A stretch of 64,000 nt of DNA from Methylobacterium sp. 77 (GTDB lineage: Bacteria; Pseudomonadota; Alphaproteobacteria; Rhizobiales; Beijerinckiaceae): assembly GCF_000372825.1 (NCBI RefSeq), contig NZ_KB910516.1:1210011-1274010 (forward strand), read 5' to 3'. The notes below the pieces were generated by a model, which was not told where the DNA came from, searched no databases, and was given only the letters and a program-made list of their open reading frames with translations. The position numbers and the translations under genes were made by a program. Below are positions 8,838 to 20,336 of the stretch, piece by piece. The first letter of the stretch is position 1. Each line of letters opens with the position of its first letter.

Positions 8838-9317
8838 ATGATGCCAGAGCTGCGCGTCCTGTATTTCGAGGATCTCGAAGTCGGGCTGTCCGAAACCTTG
8901 AACAAGGTCATCGCCTCCTCCGACGTGGTCGGCTTCGCCGAGATCACCGGCGACCGCAATCCGATCCACCTGTCCGAGCACTTCGCGGCGCGCACCCCCT
9001 TCGGCACCCGCATCGCCCATGGCCTCTACACCGCCGGGCTGATCTCGGCCGTGCTAGGCACCCGGCTGCCCGGCCCCGGCGCCATCTACATCAGCCAGAC
9101 CCTGAACTTTCGCGCGCCCGTGCGCATCGGCGACACCGTCCAGGTGACCGTGGAAGTGGCCGAGCTCGTCCCCGAGCGCCGCCGCGCCCGACTGAAATGC
9201 ACCTGCTCGGTGGCGGGAGAAGTCGTCCTCGACGGCGAAGCCCTGGTCAAGGTGCCGACCAAGGAAGAGGCCGACCCGCTGGCGGTGCGCATGGGCGGGC
9301 GTCCCACGGGGGCGTGA
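8838..9317 (+). CDS. MaoC-family enoyl-CoA hydratase
   Basis: This 159-residue single hot-dog domain has the catalytic D-x4-H pair as Asp39 and His44 in TGDRNPIHLSEHFA. It is typical of (R)-specific enoyl-CoA hydratases, which act in polyhydroxybutyrate or crotonyl-CoA metabolism. GGGAGA precedes the first ATG by seven bases. The gene lies just before a SpoU methylase gene on the same strand but 38 bases apart, so a functional link is not implied. Whether it is phaJ- or croR-like cannot be decided here. Confidence 0.85.
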   Translation: MMPELRVLYFEDLEVGLSETLNKVIASSDVVGFAEITGDRNPIHLSEHFAARTPFGTRIAHGLYTAGLISAVLGTRLPGPGAIYISQTLNFRAPVRIGDTVQVTVEVAELVPERRRARLKCTCSVAGEVVLDGEALVKVPTKEEADPLAVRMGGRPTGA

Positions 9318-9355
9318 GCGGCGATCACGCCCTCTCTCCATCAGCGAGAGAGGCC

Positions 9356-10231
9356 ATGCCCGCGTCCCGCGATTCCCTGCCTTCCGTCCGCATGCCGCCC
9401 ATCCCCATCGACGACCCCTCCGATTCCCGCATCGCGGCCTATGCCGCCATGCGGGAGCGCGACCTGATCGGGCGCGAGGGCCGCTTCATCGTGGAGGGGG
9501 AGGTGACCCTGCGGGTGCTGCTCTCGGAGATGGCGCGGTTCCGTCCGGAATCGCTGCTTCTCAGTCATGAGCGCGTGGCGCCCCTCGCCGACGCGATCGC
9601 CGCCCTGCCCGCCTCGGTGCCGGTCTACACGGCCTCGAAGGCGGTGATGAGCGCCATCGCCGGCTTCCCGATCCACCGGGGCGTAATGGCGGTGGGCTTG
9701 CGCGGAGCGCAGGTCCCCTTCGCCCTTCCGCCGTCCCCGGCCCCCGCCCTGGTGGTCGGCCTCGTCGGCCTGACCAACCACGACAATGTCGGAGGCCTGT
9801 TCCGCAACGCCGCCGCGTTCGGCGCCGACGGCGTGCTCCTCGACCCGGCCACCTGCGACCCGCTCTACCGCAAGGCGATCCGCGTCTCGGCCGGCGCGGC
9901 GCTGATCGTGCCGTTCGCGCGGATGGAGGCGGAGGCCATGCTGCATTGTGCCCGGGCGAACGACCTCGTTCCCCTCGCCTTCAGCCCGCGCGGGGAGGAA
10001 GTGCTCGCCGACCTGCCGCCCCTGCCGCGCACGCTGCTGCTGCTCGGCACCGAGGGGCCGGGCCTGTCGCACGGCCTGATGGCGCGGACGCGCACCGTGC
10101 GGATCCCCATGGCACCGGGATTCGATTCGCTGAACGTGGCCACGGCGGGGGCCCTGGCGCTGCACCACTTGGCGATGCACCACCTGGCGATGCAGGCACG
10201 CGACAATCCGCACCCATTGTCCCGTCCGTGA
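9356..10231 (+). CDS. SpoU-family RNA 2'-O-methyltransferase
   Basis: This 291-residue TrmH/SpoU-type enzyme methylates a ribose 2'-OH in rRNA or tRNA using SAM. The three family motifs are present: LTNHDNVGGLFRNAAAFG, LLLLGTEGPGLS and RIPMAPGFDSLNVATAGALA, which form the knotted SAM site. The N-terminal part (RDLIGREGRFIVEGEVTL) resembles a substrate-binding domain. The tail contains a short duplicated HHLAM. An ATG twelve codons in is a possible later start. Target RNA unknown. Confidence 0.88.
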   Translation: MPASRDSLPSVRMPPIPIDDPSDSRIAAYAAMRERDLIGREGRFIVEGEVTLRVLLSEMARFRPESLLLSHERVAPLADAIAALPASVPVYTASKAVMSAIAGFPIHRGVMAVGLRGAQVPFALPPSPAPALVVGLVGLTNHDNVGGLFRNAAAFGADGVLLDPATCDPLYRKAIRVSAGAALIVPFARMEAEAMLHCARANDLVPLAFSPRGEEVLADLPPLPRTLLLLGTEGPGLSHGLMARTRTVRIPMAPGFDSLNVATAGALALHHLAMHHLAMQARDNPHPLSRP

Positions 10232-10412
10232 TGCCGGTCGAGATTAGGCGGCAAGCTAGGCCGGTGCGGAGGAGATTTTCGACGCGGCGACCTTGAGCTT
10301 GGAGTGAATATCGATACCCCTTGCGGCAGGCGCCCTCCTTTCGGAGGGACCCCCCTTCGCACGGGGCCTGTCGCCGAGGGAGTTGAACGCGTTGCTTCAG
10401 TCACGGGATGGC

Positions 10413-11999
10413 ATGCGGACCTTGTCCGGACGCCGCGTCATCGTCGTCGGCGCCGGTCCCGGAGGATTGGCCACGGCGCTGCTCCTCGCTCGCGCCGGCA
10501 TCCACGTCACGATCGTCGAGAAGGACCCGGCCGTCGGCGGCCGGACCAAGACGGTGGAGGCGCCCGGCGGCTACCGCTTCGACATCGGCCCGACCTTCTT
10601 CCTCTATCCGCAGATCCTCGCCGACATCTTCGAGACATGCGGCGAGAGACTCGAGGATCACGTCAAGCTGGAGCGGCTCGACCCGCAATACCATCTCGTC
10701 TTCGAGGGCAAGGACGCGGAGGGCCGGAACGGGGTCTCGGGCGAGATCCGCGCCACCGGCGACATGGACCGCCTCGAGGCGGAGATCGCCCGCATCGCCC
10801 CGGATGACGCCAAGAACGTCAGGAAGTTCTTCGCCGACAATCGGGTCAAGCTGAAATTCTTCAAGCCGGTTTTGGAACAGGCCTTCCACACCCTGCGGGC
10901 CATGGCCTCGCCGGCGATGCTCGCGGCCCTGCCCTATCTCCATCCCGGCCGCAGCGTCGACAAGGACCTTCAGCGCTACTTCAAGGACCCGCGGGTCCGC
11001 CTCGCCTTCGCGTTCCAGACCAAATACCTCGGCATGTCGCCGTTCCGGTGCCCGAGCCTGTTCACGATCCTGTCGTTCCTCGAATACGAGCACGGGGTCT
11101 ACCATCCCGTCGGCGGCTGCGGCGCGGTGTCGGAGGCGATGGCCGGCCTCGCCCGCCGCATGGGCGTGGACATCCGCCTCGACACGTCGGTCGACCGGGT
11201 GATCTTCGAGGGCAAGAAGGCCACCGGCGTGGTCTGCGGGGCCGAGACCCTGAAGGCCGACGCCGTGGTCATCAACGGCGATTTCGCCAAGGTCATCCAG
11301 GATCTGGTGCCGCAGAGTCATCGCCCGCGCTGGCGCGACGCCAAGATCGACAAGGCCCGCCTCTCCTGCTCGACCTTCATGATGTATCTCGGCATCGAAG
11401 GGACGGTGCCGGCGGCTCTGGGCCACCACACCATCTTCCTGTCGGAGGAATACGCCCGCAACATCCGCGAGATCACCGAGGGCACTCTGCCGATGCAGCC
11501 CTCGCTCTACGTCCAGCACGCGGGCTACACCGATGGCGGCATGGCGCCGGCCGGCCATACCAGTCTCTACGTCCTGGTGCCGGTGCCGAACCTGAGATCC
11601 GGGATCGACTGGCCCGCCACCCGCGAGAGCTACCGCCGCCTCGTCCTCGACCGGCTGAAGCTGCTCGGGCTCGACGATATCGAGGACCGCATCCGCTACG
11701 AGCGCATCGTCGACCCGACGCAGTGGCGCGACGATTTCTTCGTGCACGAGGGCGCCACCTTCAACCTCGCCCACGACCTGATGCAGATGCTGTATTTCCG
11801 CCCGCACAACCGCTTCGGGCCGGGGCTCTACCTCGTCGGCGGCGGCACCCATCCGGGTTCGGGCCTGCCGGTGATCTACGAGGGCGCGCGCATCACCGCC
11901 CGCCTGCTGATCGAGGAGCTCTCCGCCGGGCGCGTGAATGCGGAGGCCGCCGGCATCCCCACCACCCAGCCGCTCGCCACGTCGGGCGAGGCTTCGTGA
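10413..11999 (+). CDS. Carotenoid desaturase/oxidase, CrtN/CrtI type (1)
   Basis: This 528-residue FAD enzyme has the dinucleotide-binding motif VVGAGPGGLA (G13, G15, G18), the downstream GGRTKTVEAPGGYRFDIGPTF of phytoene-type desaturases and the C-terminal FAD motif LVGGGTHPGSGLP. It should dehydrogenate or oxidise an acyclic carotenoid, probably a C30 (diapo) one in this type of organism. The ATG at 10413 is used; a TTG ten codons upstream is possible but its ribosome site lies too close. It is the first gene of the pigment cluster and overlaps the DUF2141 gene by GTGA. Confidence 0.88.
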   Translation: MRTLSGRRVIVVGAGPGGLATALLLARAGIHVTIVEKDPAVGGRTKTVEAPGGYRFDIGPTFFLYPQILADIFETCGERLEDHVKLERLDPQYHLVFEGKDAEGRNGVSGEIRATGDMDRLEAEIARIAPDDAKNVRKFFADNRVKLKFFKPVLEQAFHTLRAMASPAMLAALPYLHPGRSVDKDLQRYFKDPRVRLAFAFQTKYLGMSPFRCPSLFTILSFLEYEHGVYHPVGGCGAVSEAMAGLARRMGVDIRLDTSVDRVIFEGKKATGVVCGAETLKADAVVINGDFAKVIQDLVPQSHRPRWRDAKIDKARLSCSTFMMYLGIEGTVPAALGHHTIFLSEEYARNIREITEGTLPMQPSLYVQHAGYTDGGMAPAGHTSLYVLVPVPNLRSGIDWPATRESYRRLVLDRLKLLGLDDIEDRIRYERIVDPTQWRDDFFVHEGATFNLAHDLMQMLYFRPHNRFGPGLYLVGGGTHPGSGLPVIYEGARITARLLIEELSAGRVNAEAAGIPTTQPLATSGEAS

Positions 12000-12424
12000 G
12001 GCGTTTTTTCGCGACCGGCCTGGCGCTGATCCTCGGCCTGGGCCTCGGCCCCGCGCGGGCGGCCACCGTCGAGGTGGTGGTGGACGGGATCGAGCCGGGC
12101 GCCGGCACGGTCTACGTCGCCCTGTGCCAGGGCGGCCTGTCGGAGGCCGAGTGCCGCAACGGCCAGGACGTTCCCGCCACAGGCCGGAGCCAGCGGGTGG
12201 TCCTCACCGGGATCGAACCCGGTGCCTATGCGGTGGCGGCCTACCAGGATCTCAACGGCAACCGCCGCCTCGACCGTACCGGCCTCGGCCTGCCGCTCGA
12301 ACCCTATGGCTTTTCCGGCGAGATGGGACGCGCCCGGCCGGATTTCGCGCGCGCGCGGTTCGTCCTGCGCGAGCCCGGCATCGCCTTGCGGGTGCGCCTC
12401 ACCCGCGCCCTGCCACCCCGCTGA
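11996..12424 (+). CDS. DUF2141 exported protein
   Basis: This 142-residue protein has a signal peptide (VRRFFATGLALILGLGLG, then ARA). The mature part carries the DUF2141 pattern, including YVALCQGGLSEAEC, a GAYAVAAYQDLNGNRRLD segment and an EPYGFSGEMG block. Start is GTG overlapping the stop of the upstream desaturase (GTGA). DUF2141 genes recur in carotenoid clusters of various bacteria, but I know of no proven function. Its placement between a desaturase and an ABC exporter suggests an envelope role in pigment handling. Confidence 0.85.
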   Translation: MRRFFATGLALILGLGLGPARAATVEVVVDGIEPGAGTVYVALCQGGLSEAECRNGQDVPATGRSQRVVLTGIEPGAYAVAAYQDLNGNRRLDRTGLGLPLEPYGFSGEMGRARPDFARARFVLREPGIALRVRLTRALPPR

Positions 12425-12435
12425 CGCCGCCGCCG

Positions 12436-13416
12436 ATGAATCCGGGACGCGAGCCCCTGGTCGCGATCCGGGGCGCCACCCTCGCCTATCGCGGGCATCG
12501 CGTGCTCCGAGGCATCGATTGCCGGATCGAGGCGGGCGAGACCCTGGCGCTGCTCGGGCCCAACGGCGCCGGCAAGAGCTCGCTCATGCGCCTCGTGGCC
12601 GGACGCTTGCCGCCGGAGAGCGGCACCGTGCGGATCGCCGGCGCCGACCCGTTCCGCGAGCGCGAGGCGCGGCGCGCCATCGGCTGGGTGCCGCAGGAGA
12701 TCGCCCTCTATCCCCGCCTCACCGTGGCCGAGAACCTCTCGGTCTTCGCCCAGCTCTCGGGAATCGGCCGGCGCGAGCGCAAGGCGGCGGTGCAGGCCGC
12801 CCTGGATCTGGCCGATCTCGGCGAGGTGGCGCGGCGCCCGGTCGGCCATCTGTCCGGCGGCTACCAGCGCCGGGCCAACATCGCCGCGAGCCTGATGGCG
12901 CGGCCGCGCCTCGTCCTCCTCGACGAGCCGACGCAAGGGGTGGACCTGCACGCCCGCGCCGCGATCCATGCGGTGCTCGCGCGGCTGCGGGCGCAAGGGG
13001 CCGCCATCCTCATCGCCACCCACGATTTCGCCGAGGCCGAGCGCCTCGCCGACCGGGTCGCCATCCTGGCGGATGGGCGGCTCGTCCATGAAGGCCGCCT
13101 CGCCGCCCTGCTGGAACGCATCCGCGCGGAGGTGCCCGAGCACGAGGTGGCGCTGGCGAGCCCCGCCGATCCCGCGGCCGAGGCGGCCCTGCGCCGGGCG
13201 GGGTTCTCGCCGGTCGATACCGGCCTGACCTGGCGTGCCACGCACAGGGCGGGGCTCGACGGAACCGCGCTCCTCGGCACCCTGAGGATGGAGGGCGTGC
13301 CGGTGGCCGAGATCCGCATCCGCGCGCCGGGCCTGGAGGCGATCTACCGCGAGGCCCTGGACCGCGCCGAGCCGGACCGGCCGATCGACCTCCGCCGGAT
13401 CGGGGCCATGCCATGA
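12436..13416 (+). CDS. ABC exporter ATPase in carotenoid cluster
   Basis: This 326-residue ATPase has Walker A GPNGAGKS (41-48), signature LSGGYQRR (139-146) and Walker B LVLLDEP (159-165). It has a C-terminal extension of about 90 residues seen in ABC-2 export ATPases (drug, polysaccharide or lipid exporters of the CcmA/DrrA class). It overlaps the next gene, the permease, by ATGA, so the two form one exporter. Location inside the pigment cluster suggests a hydrophobic pigment or glycolipid cargo; that is inference. Confidence 0.87.
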
Positions 13417-14618
13417 TCGCCGCCGCCTTCCGGGTGATGCTGATCAGCCTGCGGCGCGACCGTGCCGCCCTGGTCATGGCCTTCGTCCTGCCGACCGTGA
13501 TCTTCATGATCTTCGCCGCGATCTTCTCCGGCGCCATCGGCGACCGCATCCGCATCCATCTGGGCCTTGCGGATCTCGCCCGCACCGCGACCACCGAGCG
13601 GCTGATGGCGGCCCTGGAGGCCGACCCGTCCCTGCGCATCGAGCGCCTGAGCGCGACCGACCTCGCCGGGGCGACGAGCGCGGTCCGCCGCGGCGAGGTC
13701 GACGTCGCCCTGGTCCTGCGCGGCGATCTCGACGCGCCGGCCACCGGAGCCCCGCCGGAGGCCGGCCAGCCGGTGGTGCTGATCGAGAACCCGGCGAGGG
13801 CGCTCGCCACCCCGATCGCCCTCGGCCAGTTGCAGCGCGTCCTCAACGAGGCCCTGCCCGACGTGGTGCTCGCCCGGATCGTCGCCGACGTCGAGCGCTC
13901 GGGCAAGATCGGGCCGGACGAGCGCGCCTTCCTCACCTCGGCCTTCGCCGAGCAGCGCGCCCGAAAGGAGCCGTTCTCCTTCGCCTCCCTGGTGGAGCGC
14001 CGGAGCACCGCCTCGGGCCGCACCAACGAGCGGGTGAGCTATTACGCCGGCGCCATCACCGCCGTGTTCCTGCTGTTCGCCGCCATGCAGGGGGCGATGT
14101 CTCTCGTCGAGGAGCGGCAATCCGGCCTCGCCGACCGGCTCATGGCCGGCCCCGGCGGGCTGGCCGTGGTGGTGCTGGGCAAATTCCTGTTCCTGGTGAT
14201 CCAGGGCATCGTCCAGGCCGGCCTGATCTTCGCCGCCGCCGCCCTGATCTACGGAGTGGAGATCGGCCCGCACTGGCCGGCCTGGATCGTGACCTCGCTC
14301 CTCGTCTCGGCCATGGCCGCGGGGCTGGCGCTCGCGGCCTGCGCCGCCGCCAACACCCGCCAGCAGGCGCATCTCGCCTCCACCTTCGGCGTGCTCCTGC
14401 TCTCGGCCGTGGGCGGCAGCATGGTGCCCCGCTTCCTGATGCCGCCCTGGCTGCAGCAGGCCGGCTGGCTCACCCCCAACGCCTGGGCGATCGAGGCCTA
14501 TCAGACCGCTCTGGGCGAAGGCTGGGCGGCGGCCCTGCCGGCCTGGGGCGTGATGATCACGATCGCGGCCCTGGGGCTGGTGGCGGCGGTGGGGCTGGTG
14601 GCGCGCCGGGTGGTGTGA
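13413..14618 (+). CDS. ABC-2 type export permease in carotenoid cluster
   Basis: This 401-residue membrane protein has one N-terminal transmembrane segment (about residues 18-40), a large extracytoplasmic domain of roughly 170 residues, then five more segments (from about 210 to the end). This is the layout of ABC-2 exporters of the YhhJ/DrrB kind. ATGA overlap couples it to the ATPase gene. A 269-bp gap follows before the second desaturase. Confidence 0.87.
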
Positions 14619-14887
14619 GCGGACCCGCTTCGCGACCGCCGCATGATGGTCCGGCCATCCCCGCCCCCGATCCGATCGTTTCGCACGGGCGCTCGATCGC
14701 CTCGAAACGCTGCCCGACCCGACCGACCGCGTTCTCGGCATCGACCCGGAGGGAACCATCGCGGTCTCCCCGTTTCCTAAAACCGGGAAGAACTGTGCCG
14801 GCGCGACCGGTTAGCGCGTTGACCCCCGGGCGATCCGGTCTAGCTTCACCTCCGAGGCGCGGCATCGGCCGTGCCCGGGGAGTGACG

Positions 14888-16438
14888 ATGAACATGCGGG
14901 TCGGGTCTTCGGTCGCCGTGGTCGGTGCAGGGTTGGGCGGTCTCGCGGCGGCCTGCGTCAGCGCGGCGCGCGGCCACGCGGTGACGGTCTACGACAAGAA
15001 CGACTGGCTCGGCGGCAAGGCGGCGGTGTTGCACGAGGGCGGTTTCCGCTTCGACATGGGTCCGACCATCCTCACCGTGCCGAAGGTGCTGGAGCGGATC
15101 TTCCAGGAGGCCGGGCGCGACATCCACGACTACCTCGACCTTCGCCGCCTCGACCCGCAATGGCGCTGCTTCTTCGACGACGACACCCGTCTCGACCTGA
15201 TGGCCGACGTGCCGACCATGGCCGCCGATATGGAGCGCTTCGCGCCCAATACCGGGGCCGGCGAAGGCTACAAGAAATTCCTCGAGATTTCCGAGCACCT
15301 GCACGACGTCTCGAACAAGTTCTTCTTCTGGAAGCCGGTGGAGGACCTGTTCGACACGATCAACATCCGCGCCAACATGAATCCCGGCACCCTGCGGGAC
15401 GTGCTGTCCCTGCGCATGGGGACCTCGGTGGCCGGCACCATCCGCTCGAAGGTGAAGGATGCCCGCCTCGCGCAGATGCTCGACCATTTCGTGCAATATG
15501 TCGGCTCGTCCCCCTACGGCGCGCCGGCCGTGCTCTGCGCCATCGCCCATATGCAGACGGCCGAGGGGGTCTGGTACCCGATGGGCGGCACCCGCGCCGT
15601 GGCGGAGGCGCTGACGAAACTCGCCGGCGAGCTCGGCGCGACCCTGCGACCGAACGAGGAGGTCACCGGCCTCGCCATCGAGAAGGGCACGGTCAAGGGC
15701 GTGCGGACCGTGTCCGGCATCACCCCGTTCGACGCGGTGATCTCGAATATGGATTCGGTGCGGACCTACCGCGAACTCGTCGGCGGGGATGTCGGCAAGG
15801 CCTACGAGAAGAAGAGCTTCGAGCCGGCCTGTTCGGGCGTGGTGCTCTATCTCGGTCTGAACAAGCGCTACGAGCACCTGAACCACCACGATTTCGTCTT
15901 CTCGCGCGATCCCGAGGAGGAGTTCGACTACATCTACCACAAGGGCGAGCCCGCCCCGGACCCGACCGCCTATCTCGCCGCCCCCTCCTCCACCGACCCG
16001 TCGGTGGCGCCCGAGGGGGGCGAGGCGCTCTACGTCCTCGTCCACACACCCTATCTCCGGCCGCACCACGACTGGCGGACGATGTTCCCGGCCTACCGCC
16101 AGGTCATCCTCGACAAGCTCAAGCGCACCGGCCACATGCCCGATCTCGAAGAGCGCATCGTCGTCGAGCGTCACCTCACCCCGCAGGACATCCACGACCG
16201 CTACAAGGTCCTGAACGGCGCGATCTACGGCCTCGCCTCGCACGGCAAGTTCATGGGCGCGTTCAAGCCGGGCAACCGCTCGCGGCAGGTGCGCGGGCTG
16301 TACCTGGCCGGCGGCGCGGCCCATCCCGGCCCCGGCATGCCGATGGTGATGATGTCCGGCTGGATCGCCGCCGACGCCCACGATTCCGACACCCGGCAGG
16401 GCGGGGACACCCGTGGCGAGGTGCGGCAGAGCGCGTGA
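14888..16438 (+). CDS. Carotenoid desaturase/oxidase, CrtN/CrtI type (2)
   Basis: This 516-residue FAD enzyme is related to but clearly distinct from the one at 10413. It has VVGAGLGGLA (residues 11-20), GGKAAVLHEGGFRFDMGPTI, and the C-terminal LAGGAAHPGPGMPMVMMSG motif. Having two such enzymes fits a pathway with a desaturation step and an oxidation step, as CrtN and CrtP do for C30 pigments; which is which cannot be told from sequence alone. The GGGGAG site five bases before the ATG supports the start. The stop overlaps the acyltransferase start (GTGA). Confidence 0.88.
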   Translation: MNMRVGSSVAVVGAGLGGLAAACVSAARGHAVTVYDKNDWLGGKAAVLHEGGFRFDMGPTILTVPKVLERIFQEAGRDIHDYLDLRRLDPQWRCFFDDDTRLDLMADVPTMAADMERFAPNTGAGEGYKKFLEISEHLHDVSNKFFFWKPVEDLFDTINIRANMNPGTLRDVLSLRMGTSVAGTIRSKVKDARLAQMLDHFVQYVGSSPYGAPAVLCAIAHMQTAEGVWYPMGGTRAVAEALTKLAGELGATLRPNEEVTGLAIEKGTVKGVRTVSGITPFDAVISNMDSVRTYRELVGGDVGKAYEKKSFEPACSGVVLYLGLNKRYEHLNHHDFVFSRDPEEEFDYIYHKGEPAPDPTAYLAAPSSTDPSVAPEGGEALYVLVHTPYLRPHHDWRTMFPAYRQVILDKLKRTGHMPDLEERIVVERHLTPQDIHDRYKVLNGAIYGLASHGKFMGAFKPGNRSRQVRGLYLAGGAAHPGPGMPMVMMSGWIAADAHDSDTRQGGDTRGEVRQSA

Positions 16439-17241
16439 GCCCGCCGGCTTCCCCGGCCCCGCGCCATTCGCCGCTGATCTGGCGGTTCATGGTCGCGTAT
16501 TTCGACCGCTTCCTGCGTCGGCACATGAACGCGCTCCGGCTCGCCCGCTGGGGCGTTCCGGACGTCGCCGGGCATTCCGGCCCCATCGTCGTCACGCTCA
16601 ACCACCCGGCCTGGTGGGATGCGGCGGTGGTGATCCTGCTGGCCGGCCGCCTGTTTCCCGACCGGACGAGCCACGCCCCGTTCGAGGCGGAGGCCCTCGC
16701 GAAATACGCGGTGTTCTCGCGCATCGGCGCGTTTGCCGTGGACCTCGCCTCGGCCCGCGGCGCGGCGCAGTTCCTCAGGCAGTCCCGCGCCATCCTCGGC
16801 GCGCCCGGACAGATGCTCTGGATCACGGCGCAGGGGCGCTTCGTCGACGTCCGTACCCGGCCGCTCGACCTGCGCGGGGGCGTCGCGCGGCTGCCCGAGA
16901 TCGCGCCCGACGCCCTGTTCGTGCCGCTGGCCCTGGATTACGCCTTCTGGGAGGAGCGCGGCGCCGAGGCCTTCGCCGCGTTCGGCACGCCGGTGCGGGG
17001 CGCCGATCTCCTCGCCCTGCCCCGGCCCGAACGGTTGGCGCGGATGGAGGCCGACCTGACCGCGACCCTCGACCGGCTCTCCGCCGACGTGATCGCCCGC
17101 GAGCCCGGGCGCTTCACCATTCTGACCGCCGGCGGCAAGGGTGTCGGCGGGATCTACGACGGCTGGCGCCGGATGCGGGCCGTCCTCACCGGCCGCCGCT
17201 TCGACCCGGCCCATCGCTCCGAGGGAGACAGGACACCGTGA
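16435..17241 (+). CDS. Lysophospholipid acyltransferase-like protein
   Basis: This 268-residue protein has the acyltransferase H-x4-D motif as NHPAWWD near residue 58 and a later TAQGRFVD block where the glycerol-phosphate-binding motif normally lies. It should transfer a fatty acyl group to a hydroxyl, perhaps to the sugar of a glycosylated carotenoid, as CrtO does in staphyloxanthin synthesis. The start is GTG, overlapping the desaturase stop, and its end overlaps the glycosyltransferase start (GTGA). The first ATG would remove 18 residues. Confidence 0.82.
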   Translation: MSPPASPAPRHSPLIWRFMVAYFDRFLRRHMNALRLARWGVPDVAGHSGPIVVTLNHPAWWDAAVVILLAGRLFPDRTSHAPFEAEALAKYAVFSRIGAFAVDLASARGAAQFLRQSRAILGAPGQMLWITAQGRFVDVRTRPLDLRGGVARLPEIAPDALFVPLALDYAFWEERGAEAFAAFGTPVRGADLLALPRPERLARMEADLTATLDRLSADVIAREPGRFTILTAGGKGVGGIYDGWRRMRAVLTGRRFDPAHRSEGDRTP

Positions 17242-18371
17242 CCCTCGCCCTGGCGCTCGTCGCCCTCGCCTTCGCCCTCCTTCCCGCCTTCCTGGCCTGC
17301 GCGAACCTCATTGCCCTGCGCACGCCCGAGCCGGAGGCCGCGCAGGACGGATTGGTCTCGATCCTGATCCCCGCCCGCAACGAGGAGGGCAGCATCGCGG
17401 CCACGGTCCGAGCGGCGCTGGCGAGCACCGGCATCGCCGTGGAGGTGCTGGTGGGCGACGACCATTCCACCGACGCCACGGCCGCCATCGTCCGCGCCCT
17501 GGCGGAGGCCGATCCACGGGTCCGCCTCGTCTCCGTGCCCGCCCTGCCCGAGGGCTGGACGGGGAAGAACCATGCCTGCGCCGCCCTCGCCGGGGAGGCG
17601 AGGGGCGGCCATCTCCTCTTCCTCGACGCCGACGTCACCCTCTCGCCCGGCACGGCGTCCGGGCTCGTCGCCCATGCCCGCGCCTCGGGGGCCGCCCTGG
17701 TGAGCGCGGTGCCGCGCCAGATCATGGGTAGCGTCGGCGAGCGGCTCACCGTGCCGATGATCAACTTCCTCCTCGTCGGCTACCTGCCCGTGCCGATGAT
17801 GCGCGCCTCGCTCCGCCCCGCCCTCGGCGCCGCCTGCGGCCAGCTCGTCCTCGTCGATCGCTCCGTCTATGGCCGGACCGGCGGACACGGCGCCATCCGG
17901 GGACGCCTGCATGACGGCGTGTTCCTGCCGCGCATCCTGCGCCATGCCGGACATCGCACCGACCTCGTGGCCGGGCACGCGCTCGCCACCTGCCGGATGT
18001 ACACGAGCTTCGCCGAATCCTGGGCCGGGTTCTCGAAGAACGCCCATGAGGGCATGGCGACGCCGCGCGCCCTCCCCGTCTGGACGCTGCTGCTGCTCGC
18101 CGGCCACGTCCTGCCGCTGCTCCTCGTCCTCGCCGCCGCGTTCGGCCTCGCGACACCCAGCGCGGGGTTGGTGGCCCTCGCCGCCCTCGTCGTGTCGCTC
18201 GGCACCCGCGCCGCGATCACCCTCGTCACCGACGAGCCGGCCATCACCATCCTCCTCCACCCGCTCGGCGTGGCGGTGGCGCTGGCGATCCAGTGGAACG
18301 TCCTGCTGGCGCCGAGGCGCGCAGGCGCGGCGGTGTGGAAGGGGCGCAGCTATCCGGTCAAGGGCATGTGA
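17238..18371 (+). CDS. CrtQ-like family 2 glycosyltransferase
   Basis: This 377-residue membrane-bound GT2 enzyme has an N-terminal transmembrane segment, the nucleotide-sugar site (SILIPARNEEGSIAAT, VGDDHSTD), GWTGKNHACAALAGEA, and the metal-binding FLDADVTL. Three hydrophobic segments close the protein. The GWTGKNHA block is characteristic of CrtQ and hopanoid/carotenoid glycosyltransferases. It probably glycosylates an apocarotenoid acid or alcohol. GTG start overlaps the acyltransferase stop. Last gene of the cluster. Confidence 0.87.
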   Translation: MTLALALVALAFALLPAFLACANLIALRTPEPEAAQDGLVSILIPARNEEGSIAATVRAALASTGIAVEVLVGDDHSTDATAAIVRALAEADPRVRLVSVPALPEGWTGKNHACAALAGEARGGHLLFLDADVTLSPGTASGLVAHARASGAALVSAVPRQIMGSVGERLTVPMINFLLVGYLPVPMMRASLRPALGAACGQLVLVDRSVYGRTGGHGAIRGRLHDGVFLPRILRHAGHRTDLVAGHALATCRMYTSFAESWAGFSKNAHEGMATPRALPVWTLLLLAGHVLPLLLVLAAAFGLATPSAGLVALAALVVSLGTRAAITLVTDEPAITILLHPLGVAVALAIQWNVLLAPRRAGAAVWKGRSYPVKGM

Positions 18372-19040
18372 CCCGGTAGAGCGAAGGCCCGCCAGCCCCC
18401 CGCAGTTACCGGCGAACGGGAATCGGGGAGCCCCGGCGCGCGCACCGCCGCCGTCGGAAGCCGGGGTGAAGACGAGGCAATCCGTCCGACCGTCTCGCAC
18501 GAATTCTTCGAAATACGGGTCGGCGAGGCAGATGCCTTCGCCGGCTCCGCGCGTCGGATGGCGAAGACCGGCCAAGTGTTTGTTTTTTTTGACGTAAAGA
18601 TCAAAAACTCTTGATTTTATAATTTATGCAGATCGAATACTCGGGTCTGCGCAGCAAGATCATGCCTGCCCCTACGGGGATCTGGCCATTGCCTGACCGT
18701 GCCAGTCGACGACATCCCGGACATTCGATGACTTCCCCCCCTCGACCCGCGCGCCGGATCATCGGCCGACGCCGAAAGACGAATTTTTGCGATCGTGTGG
18801 GATGAAAAATTCTGCTCATACGTAGGCTAATATGAAGCAGAATCTCGCGAGTTACTGCAGATTTCCGTACAATACATGCACTATGGTGCTTGCCAGCGCA
18901 TTTGATATGCCAAATACTAAATACCAGGCCGCTGCCACGGAGTGCGACGATCATGCGTCGCAATCGCCGGGGCCGATGCGCCGGGATTCGTTCCCCACCA
19001 CGCCTTCAAGTATCCATGTCCATGATCAGGGAGAAAGCTC
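18372..19040. promoter_or_regulatory. Intergenic region before oxlT
   Basis: These 669 bases separate the carotenoid cluster from oxlT. I find no credible gene; the short open frames here have no ribosome site or family look. The stretch from about 18570 to 18930 is notably A/T-rich and includes a run of eight T. It probably holds the oxlT promoter and a long leader. The element TTGATATGCCA at 18902-18912 is also present upstream of xoxF (3222-3232). AGGGAGAAAGCTC directly before the ATG is the ribosome site. Confidence 0.45.
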
Positions 19041-20336
19041 ATGGCAACGCCCGTGACCGCGCCCATAGCGGCGCAAACTTCGAACCGATGGCTCCAACTG
19101 ATCCTCGGCGTGGCCTGCATGGTCGCGGCGGCGAATATCCAATACGCCTGGACGCTGTTCGTCCCTGAAATCCAGAAGACCTTCGGCTGGGATCGCGCCG
19201 CGATCCAGGTCGCCTTCACCATCTTCGTCGTGGTGCAGACCTGGCTGACCCCGATCGAAGGCTACTTCATCGACAAGTACGGCCCGAGCCGCGTGGTGAT
19301 GTTCGGCGGCCTGATGACCGGCCTCGCCTGGGTCATCAACTCCTACGCCACCTCGCTCAGCGGCTTCTATCTCGGCTCCGTGGCCGGCGGCATCGGCGTG
19401 GGCTGCGTCTACGCCACCTGCATCAACAACGCCCTGAAATGGTTCCCGGACAAGCGCGGTCTCGCGGTCGGCCTGACGGCGGGCGGCTACGGTGCCGGCT
19501 CGGCGCTCACGATCCTGCCGATCGCCAGCATGATCTCGCAGGGCAGCTACGCCCAGGCCTTCTTCATCTTCGGCCTGATCCAGGGCGCGATCATCATGCT
19601 GGCCTCGATCGGCCTGCGTGGCCCGGCCAAGGGCGAGGTCACCTACTCGACCAAGGTCCTGCAGACCCGGCGCGACTACACCCTTCGCGAAGCGCTGCGC
19701 ACCCCGGTCTTCTACGTCATGCTGCTGATGTTCACCTGCACGGTGACCGGCGGCCTGATGGCGGTGGCCCAGCTCGGCGTCATCGCGCAGGATCTCGGGG
19801 TCAAGGAGTTCCAGGTCAACCTGTACTTCTTCGCCATGGCGGCCCTGCCCTTCGCGCTGATGCTCGACCGGATCATGAACGGCATCTCGCGGCCGCTCTT
19901 CGGCTACGTCTCCGACCGGATCGGGCGCGAGAAGACGATGTTCATCGCCTTCACGATGGAGGGAATCGGCATCGTGGCCCTGGGCTATTTCGGCTCGAAC
20001 CCCTGGGCCTTCGTCATCCTCTCGGGCATCGTGTTCCTGGCCTGGGGCGAAGTCTACTCGCTGTTCAGCGCCACGGCCGCCGACACCTTCGGCTCCAAGC
20101 ACATCGGCAAGATCTACGGCGTGCTCTACTGCGCCAAGGGTTTCGCCGCCCTGTTCGTCCCGGTGGGCAACCTGATCATGCAGGCCACGGGCACCTGGGC
20201 GACGGTGCTGTACACGGTGGCGATCATGGATCTCGTGGCCGCCTTCCTGGCCATCGTCGTCCTCCGGCCGATGCTCAAGCGCCACCACCTCGCCAACGCC
20301 GCGGTGGCCCCCGCCGGCGCCCTGGCCCACGCCTGA
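19041..20336 (+). CDS. oxlT: Oxalate/formate antiporter, MFS
   Basis: This 431-residue, twelve-segment major facilitator is of the OxlT type. Family features are AANIQYAWTLFVPEIQ in the first segment, the RGLAVGLTAGGYGAGSAL loop and helix, and LFGYVSDRIGREKTM between segments 8 and 9. It exchanges oxalate for formate, or imports oxalate; many Methylobacterium grow on oxalate. A strong ribosome site precedes the ATG and a strong hairpin follows the stop, so it appears to be transcribed on its own. Confidence 0.88.
   Translation: MATPVTAPIAAQTSNRWLQLILGVACMVAAANIQYAWTLFVPEIQKTFGWDRAAIQVAFTIFVVVQTWLTPIEGYFIDKYGPSRVVMFGGLMTGLAWVINSYATSLSGFYLGSVAGGIGVGCVYATCINNALKWFPDKRGLAVGLTAGGYGAGSALTILPIASMISQGSYAQAFFIFGLIQGAIIMLASIGLRGPAKGEVTYSTKVLQTRRDYTLREALRTPVFYVMLLMFTCTVTGGLMAVAQLGVIAQDLGVKEFQVNLYFFAMAALPFALMLDRIMNGISRPLFGYVSDRIGREKTMFIAFTMEGIGIVALGYFGSNPWAFVILSGIVFLAWGEVYSLFSATAADTFGSKHIGKIYGVLYCAKGFAALFVPVGNLIMQATGTWATVLYTVAIMDLVAAFLAIVVLRPMLKRHHLANAAVAPAGALAHA

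Follow-up and report, generated by a model that had tools for sequence, protein, structure and literature searches.

The subject of this analysis is a 64,000-nucleotide stretch of DNA from Methylobacterium sp. 77 (contig NZ_KB910516.1, positions 1,210,011 to 1,274,010 of the forward strand), called the window in the following, and in particular a pair of genes at 12436-14618 for the ATPase and the permease of an ATP-binding cassette (ABC) transporter. The pair is part of a seven-gene cluster at 10413-18371, where all genes are on the + strand and follow each other in the order crtN, DUF2141, ABC ATPase, ABC-2 permease, crtP, acyltransferase and family-2 glycosyltransferase (GT2). We propose, with a probability of roughly 0.6, that the ATPase and the permease constitute an exporter or flippase that is dedicated to carotenoids and accessory to their biosynthesis. 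The substrates would then probably be polar-ended carotenoids in general, because a polar-ended carotenoid is what the C30 and the C40 companions of the exporter have in common.

Linkage between the exporter and carotenoid genes

When the search starts from the permease, carotenoid genes are found beside it in one sample after another. The permease occurs in ten of 149 Beijerinckiaceae genomes, and in all ten it has carotenoid genes as neighbours (crtN/crtP in eight, crtY/crtW-like genes in two). Four of 385 genomes sampled from the class contain a permease above 170 bits, all four together with carotenoid genes, and two of these loci are C40 clusters in which crtE-ATPase-permease-crtW-crtZ faces crtY-crtI-crtB. 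Among 119 genomes of Caulobacteraceae, the family of the genome that carries locus L100, a permease of at least 198 bits is present in 18, and in each of the 18 a crtE-like gene adjoins the ATPase gene and a crtZ-like gene is nearby. Twelve of these loci also have crtB/crtI in the DNA examined, and in the other six genomes crtI is located elsewhere; in total crtI occurs in 35 genomes of this sample, namely in all 18 with the exporter and in 17 without it. Two of 72,556 plasmid records match the permease, both in carotenoid loci. Finally, 77 of the 80 named loci, which are the best 80 of 202 relatives as picked by permease, are linked to carotenoid genes; of the three exceptions, L094 and L095 have crtN/crtP elsewhere in the genome, whereas L081 sits at the edge of a contig.

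In the samples searched, no genome that was shown to be free of carotenoid genes yielded a close homologue of the permease. Weak homologues of at most 101 bits (G431, G509, G234, G263) have no crt genes within the 3.5-3.9 kb seen, an 82-bit second copy in G582 has none over 19 kb, and a search in the order of G268 (four genomes) returned two matches that were both already known. The gene labels in L108 and L100 come from best NCBIfam matches, below cut-off for crtE, crtB and crtW and above it for crtY and crtI, while crtZ is labelled from Pfam FA_hydroxylase, its size and a histidine pattern; in other C40 loci the labels follow from phmmer similarity to the L108 and L100 proteins.

The linkage spans C30 and C40 clusters in four alphaproteobacterial families. 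It does not depend on one arrangement, since at least six gene orders occur: the exporter may stand between crtN and crtP, it may lie upstream of crtN while DUF2141 has the opposite orientation, or it may be divergent from crtN; in other loci it is located past GT2, next to crtY/crtW, or between crtE and crtZ. Two circumstances reduce the weight of these counts, namely that Methylobacterium genomes are shared between the samples and that members of one family are not independent of each other. Both are countered by the number of different gene orders.

When the search starts instead from crtP, the outcome is different. Orthologues of crtP (69-100% identity) are present in 19 of the 149 Beijerinckiaceae genomes, the own genome included; 36 further family genomes, with crtP matches of at most 37% identity, were excluded from the count. 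Seven of the 19 clusters have both exporter and DUF2141, one has the exporter only, eight have DUF2141 only and three have neither, and at E 1e-30 the 11 genomes without exporter do not match the permease in any part of their sequence. Within the genus Methylobacterium the exporter is present in five of seven sampled genomes. At E 1e-120, crtP has matches in eight genomes of the class sample. Two of these, the window genome and G008, carry the exporter, G294 has no more than a 54% crtP-like gene, and from the five further full crtN-crtP-acyltransferase-GT2 clusters (L101-L105, of which L104 is a 7.9-kb contig) the exporter is absent. Of 11 plasmid records with crtP, three of them from Azospirillum brasilense, one has the exporter (Microvirga ossetica) and ten do not. 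Because only a few of the best candidates were scored per genome (three to four class-wide, 10 to 15 in the family searches), these absences are softer than the presences.

The initial annotation of the cluster had assigned the exporter to the pigment, and had named absence from most homologous clusters as a finding that would refute this. It is in fact missing from 11 of 19, 5 of 5 and 10 of 11 clusters in family, class and plasmids, respectively, so that the exporter as a constant part of C30 clusters is rejected. What stands is the association seen from the side of the permease, in ten of ten Beijerinckiaceae, 18 of 18 Caulobacteraceae and two of two plasmid loci.

Fold of the permease and the nature of the cargo

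The ATPase has a Walker A motif, an LSGGY signature, a Walker B motif and a candidate H-loop, and together with its cognate ABC2_membrane permease it makes up an ABC-2 exporter. In the AlphaFold2 model of the permease, with a mean predicted local distance difference test (pLDDT) of 88.5, a first long helix is followed by a domain of about 165 residues, which is taken to lie outside, and then by the rest of the membrane part. The model matches ABCH-9C (ceramide-bound), NosY, ABCA4/1/7 and ABCG exporters, and the predicted fold is thus that of a Type V (ABCA/ABCG/ABCH-like) exporter. Since the matches to ABCH-9C, NosY and ABCA4/1/7 lie within 2 Z units, the fold points to an exporter, not to a lipid as its cargo; NosY is not known to be a lipid exporter. 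Fold class and ATPase motifs are, like gene content and the linkage across families, results of computation. A sequence search of the PDB with the permease gave no relative at E 0.01. In a permease tree, drawn from its midpoint, a well-supported branch (15 rows, 100/98) sets apart the C30-linked permeases, together with the two from crtN/crtP genomes that are not linked; the C40 rows are not resolved, and the weak homologues are on very long branches.

To see what a carotenoid exporter could do, consider a cell where CrtN, CrtP and the tailoring enzymes are active, as is thought, at the inner leaflet of the cytoplasmic membrane. The exporter would pick up the finished polar-ended carotenoid from this leaflet and bring either one of its polar ends or the entire molecule over to the periplasmic side. 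The result would be either a bipolar pigment that spans the bilayer or a first step on the way to the outer membrane. As an accessory, the exporter would not be required for biosynthesis, and it would serve C30 dioic-acid pigments as well as C40 xanthophylls. DUF2141 would be a periplasmic beta-sandwich that acts on the same pigments at the far side, by handling, placing or protecting them, and would not need the exporter for this. For Methylobacterium, PMC5358736 cites an outer-membrane location of most of the hopanoids; in the parts consulted of that paper, no statement on the location of the carotenoid was found.

Substrate, direction and destination of transport, the arrangement of the dimer and the role of DUF2141 are in this scheme what we infer. 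The scheme in its full extent, in which a dedicated bacterial exporter/flippase family serves carotenoids of both kinds, C30 dioic acids as well as C40 xanthophylls, by taking one polar end across the inner membrane, and in which DUF2141 is the periplasmic partner of the C30 pigments, is tentative, and we would give it slightly less than even odds.

The rival explanation that survives best is that the exporter, although part of carotenoid loci, transports another compound, such as an isoprenoid or apocarotenoid by-product, a membrane lipid that is displaced by the rigid pigments, or oxidation products, and thus is an efflux or membrane-homeostasis pump co-regulated with pigment synthesis. This would suit the best profiles of the ATPase, drug-type DrrA and NodI (both below cut-off), the variety of substrates that folds of the permease class handle, the existence of clusters that dispense with the exporter, and the observation that the Caulobacteraceae exporter is tied most closely to crtE, a gene for isoprenoid precursors. 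However, the linkage includes crtZ- and crtW-like genes, which act late in xanthophyll synthesis, and it includes crtN/crtP in loci with no crtE-like match in the DNA examined. We regard such a pump as unlikely, though it deserves to be kept in mind.

It is considerably less probable that the exporter is specific for the acylated glucosyl carotenoid. Its position is inside a cluster of the type that makes this glycolipid in Methylobacterium, and the C30 side of the branch in the permease tree would allow a C30-specialised version, but the exporter is missing from the majority of the clusters that have this GT2 and this acyltransferase. Furthermore, no homologue of the acyltransferase or GT2 is seen in the DNA examined of the C40 exporter loci (other glycosyltransferase families were not looked for), which makes it unlikely that the exporter recognises the glycolipid part. 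The initial annotation, in which the product or a glycolipid part of it is moved across the membrane, is in that form not supported. An accidental neighbourhood, or an unrelated transporter mobilised together with the pigment genes, is highly improbable: such clusters sit on large plasmids, so that passenger genes are to be expected, and many of them lack the exporter, but chance does not account for at least six gene orders in C30 and C40 clusters of four families, nor for the fact that no close homologue was found, in the samples searched, in a genome shown to be without carotenoid genes.

How rigid carotenoids that are polar at both ends come to span the membrane, or reach the outer membrane, after synthesis at the cytoplasmic face is to our knowledge an open question. 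An exporter pair that keeps company with C30 and C40 genes makes it directly testable, in pink Methylobacterium and in Caulobacter relatives, and a carotenoid exporter, if true, would also be a handle for pigment secretion in biotechnology. No description of an ABC transporter in such carotenoid clusters was found in the titles and abstract openings of the open-access literature, and an earlier mention elsewhere is possible; in the parts consulted of a paper on isoprenoid efflux in Azospirillum (PMC13274349) there is no ABC transporter.

DUF2141 and the pigment genes of the cluster

The DUF2141 gene (11996-12424) is the sole match to PF09912 at E 1e-3 in the 4.66-Mb genome, a single contig, and with 71.1 bits against a gathering score of 24.4 it belongs to the family. 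An alignment of 43 sequences contains two invariant cysteines and a DxNxN-type loop, the N terminus resembles by eye a Sec signal, and the AlphaFold2 model is a confident beta-sandwich. The fold search is unspecific, with pilotins, fibronectin-like and other beta-sandwiches among the matches and no informative family, and the PDB sequence search gave nothing usable.

DUF2141 accompanies C30 clusters whether or not the exporter is there. It is present in 15 of the 19 family clusters, two of the five class clusters and six of the 11 plasmid clusters (three of A. brasilense and one each of Gluconobacter, Palleronia and Microvirga), and it sometimes overlaps GT2 or crtN by 4 nucleotides. It is also found beyond carotenoid clusters, in Caulobacter vibrioides rings. 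With a profile made from the DUF2141s of 12 clusters, no DUF2141 was detected in the DNA examined of the C40 exporter clusters L019, L020, L100, L108, L109 and L143-L159. A tblastn search of plasmids with DUF2141 returned six records, of which the two examined (Microvirga, Gluconobacter) are in crtN/crtP loci; this search is insensitive, because the DUF2141s in the A. brasilense and Palleronia clusters escaped it. Exporter and DUF2141 as one obligatory unit is rejected by the family clusters (7 both, 8 DUF2141 only, 1 exporter only, 3 neither; n = 19). The family, whose function is unknown, is thus pointed to as carotenoid-associated in several lineages.

As judged from sequence, the window cluster is of a known kind, a staphyloxanthin-like C30 glycolipid pigment cluster as the initial annotation had it, because the enzymes and the product are known from M. 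extorquens AM1, the gene set recurs in M. rhodinum, and squalene genes are present here. In AM1, according to the parts of PMC10448405 used here, glycosyltransferase (META1p3663), acyltransferase (3664), CrtP (3665) and CrtN (3670) yield 4-[2-O-octadecenoyl-glucosyl]-diapolycopenedioic acid from HpnCDE squalene. The deletions of META1p3663 and 3664 were made in that study, and the colourless crtN and crtP mutants come from earlier work cited there; in these parts only enzymes are tested, and there is no mention of exporter, DUF2141 or any gene whose number falls between 3665 and 3670. The same parts list M. rhodinum as a producer of glycosylated C30 carotenoid, and Methylorubrum rhodinum DSM 2163 (L069) has crtN, crtP, acyltransferase and GT2. 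These four genes stand in the window in the order of the M. extorquens type, as compared with Methylorubrum and Methylobacterium loci.

Both crtN and crtP belong to TIGR02734, the phytoene desaturase family, above cut-off. The acyltransferase shares 67% identity over 259 residues with its positional counterpart in M. rhodinum; it has no Pfam family at E 1e-3, and the PDB sequence search with it gave nothing usable. The best NCBIfam matches of GT2, HpnB and CruG, are below cut-off. Elsewhere in the genome an adjacent SQS_PSY pair at C1:1936805-1938483 (starts 1936805 and 1937725) is followed by an amine-oxidase-domain gene at C1:1938567, and from family and order the three are putatively HpnC, HpnD and HpnE, so that squalene synthesis is, as for M. 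extorquens-type clusters, encoded in the same genome. Separate genes of the squalene/phytoene-synthase family and of crtI type at G000:C1:855966-862507 are probably a second, C40-type set.

The genes are where the initial annotation placed them, with DUF2141 and exporter between the two desaturases (Table 1, in which start codons are the analyst's choice). Four of the six junctions are 4-nucleotide overlaps (crtN/DUF2141, ATPase/permease, crtP/acyltransferase and acyltransferase/GT2), 11 nucleotides separate DUF2141 from the ATPase gene, and since a gap of 269 nucleotides precedes crtP, two transcription units are possible. A sigma-70 scan recognised no promoter in this gap; the promoter and terminator scan gave one promoter-like site, at 18890 (shuffle mean 0.4), and two terminator-like sites (shuffle mean 2.6). 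An Rfam scan of 9000-20000 had no match, and a repeat search returned imperfect GC-rich matches alone.

Table 1. Features of the carotenoid cluster, in window coordinates
Feature	Position	Strand	Basis
crtN-type C30 (diapo)carotenoid desaturase	10413..11999	+	TIGR02734 482 bits; conserved first gene of cluster
DUF2141 protein, probably secreted	11996..12424	+	PF09912 E 9e-20; AlphaFold2 mean pLDDT 88.8
ABC exporter ATPase (nucleotide-binding subunit)	12436..13416	+	PF00005; motifs; DrrA subfamily best NCBIfam match, below cut-off
ABC-2 permease	13413..14618	+	PF12698; AlphaFold2 mean pLDDT 88.5; fold; carotenoid linkage in relatives
Gap of 269 nucleotides ahead of crtP	14619..14887	.	coordinates; room for second promoter
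crtP-type oxidase/desaturase (terminal oxidation)	14888..16438	+	TIGR02734 414 bits; orthologues 69-100% identical
Lysophospholipid-acyltransferase-like glucoside acyltransferase, META1p3664 type by position	16435..17241	+	67% identity to M. rhodinum protein
Family-2 glycosyltransferase, CrtQ-like, META1p3663 type by position	17238..18371	+	PF00535; M. rhodinum L069 homologue, 517 bits

In 72 of the 80 named loci crtN-DUF2141-ATPase-permease is collinear, and in 56 the full seven-gene order is retained, so that the order is not due to chance. Judged by permease, Methylobacterium sp. E-045, M. bullatum, sp. Leaf91 and sp. 10 come closest among the best 80 of 202 named relatives, with 94-95% identity. 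In four Methylobacterium loci (L083, L085, L087, L097) the first four genes are intact and crtP-acyltransferase-GT2 is not within 10 kb downstream; here the exporter stays with crtN. Between permease and crtP some loci have an additional gene, either for an AAA_21 ATPase (L004 10613-11839, by Pfam; L044 11301-12515, by eye), which we take to resemble defence-type ATPases, or for a glutamine-amidotransferase-like protein (L047 11142-12155, by Pfam; L044 13085-14056, by eye).

Related clusters contain further genes. The C30 carotenoid island of the 977-kb Microvirga ossetica megaplasmid (L164 8599-21101, NZ_CP016619.1) comprises DUF2141, exporter, ispH, an amine-oxidase-type (HpnE-like) oxidoreductase, a double squalene/phytoene synthase (552 residues, two SQS_PSY stretches), GT2, acyltransferase, crtP, a methyltransferase and crtN. 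In clusters of the Microvirga type (L007 9651-10742, L122 9750-10835, L164 18864-19946), the gene that separates crtP from crtN codes for a SAM-dependent methyltransferase, a candidate for methylation of carotenoid carboxyl groups. Right after GT2, three Azospirillum clusters and that of Palleronia (L169, L170, L172, L173) have a sulfotransferase-like gene, which suggests sulfated pigment variants. An aldehyde dehydrogenase (ALDH) gene lies near crtN/crtP in nine of the 11 plasmid clusters (L166-L170, L172-L175) and in chromosomal ones (L017, L018, L096, L098, L101, L103, L104, L123); two cluster ALDH queries had no match at E 1e-6 in the window, and none was found in Methylobacterium loci. 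The aldehyde dehydrogenase of the M. extorquens pathway was not found in the study of that pathway (PMC10448405, in the parts consulted), and the cluster ALDH genes can serve as query for it.

Comparison with known systems

The carotenoid operon of Corynebacterium glutamicum presumably includes an MmpL-like transporter gene (RND/MmpL type, not ABC), for which a literature search found no paper. The closest likeness of the pigment genes is to the C30 cluster of M. extorquens AM1, matched by description and not by sequence, which has the same types of crtN, crtP, acyltransferase and glycosyltransferase, and squalene genes elsewhere in the genome. The staphyloxanthin pathway of Staphylococcus aureus (crtMNPQO, aldH) likewise leads to a glycosylated and acylated C30 acid by way of CrtN, CrtP, a CrtQ-like glycosyltransferase and an acyltransferase, as described in the parts used of PMC10448405, which also state that M. 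extorquens has no CrtO homologue. The window differs from this pathway in that none of the genome's five SQS_PSY matches is located in it and the two ALDH queries have no match there at E 1e-6, so that no linked CrtM or ALDH was found, and in that exporter and DUF2141 are present.

DUF2141 has been described beside crtG in Sphingomonadales (PMC5989583, as far as consulted), where the same Pfam family adjoins a carotenoid gene and its function is not known. There, however, the neighbours are crtG and a C40 pathway, whereas here they are crtN/crtP, often with a 4-nucleotide overlap.

The predicted fold of the permease is that of the ABCH, ABCA and ABCG lipid exporters, exemplified by ABCH-9C with ceramide (8yzp), where the match extends over nearly the full length, and by ABCA4 with N-ret-PE (7m1q). 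The exporter of the window differs from these in that its ATPase is encoded by a separate gene and the identity is 11-18%, and NosY matches the permease equally well.

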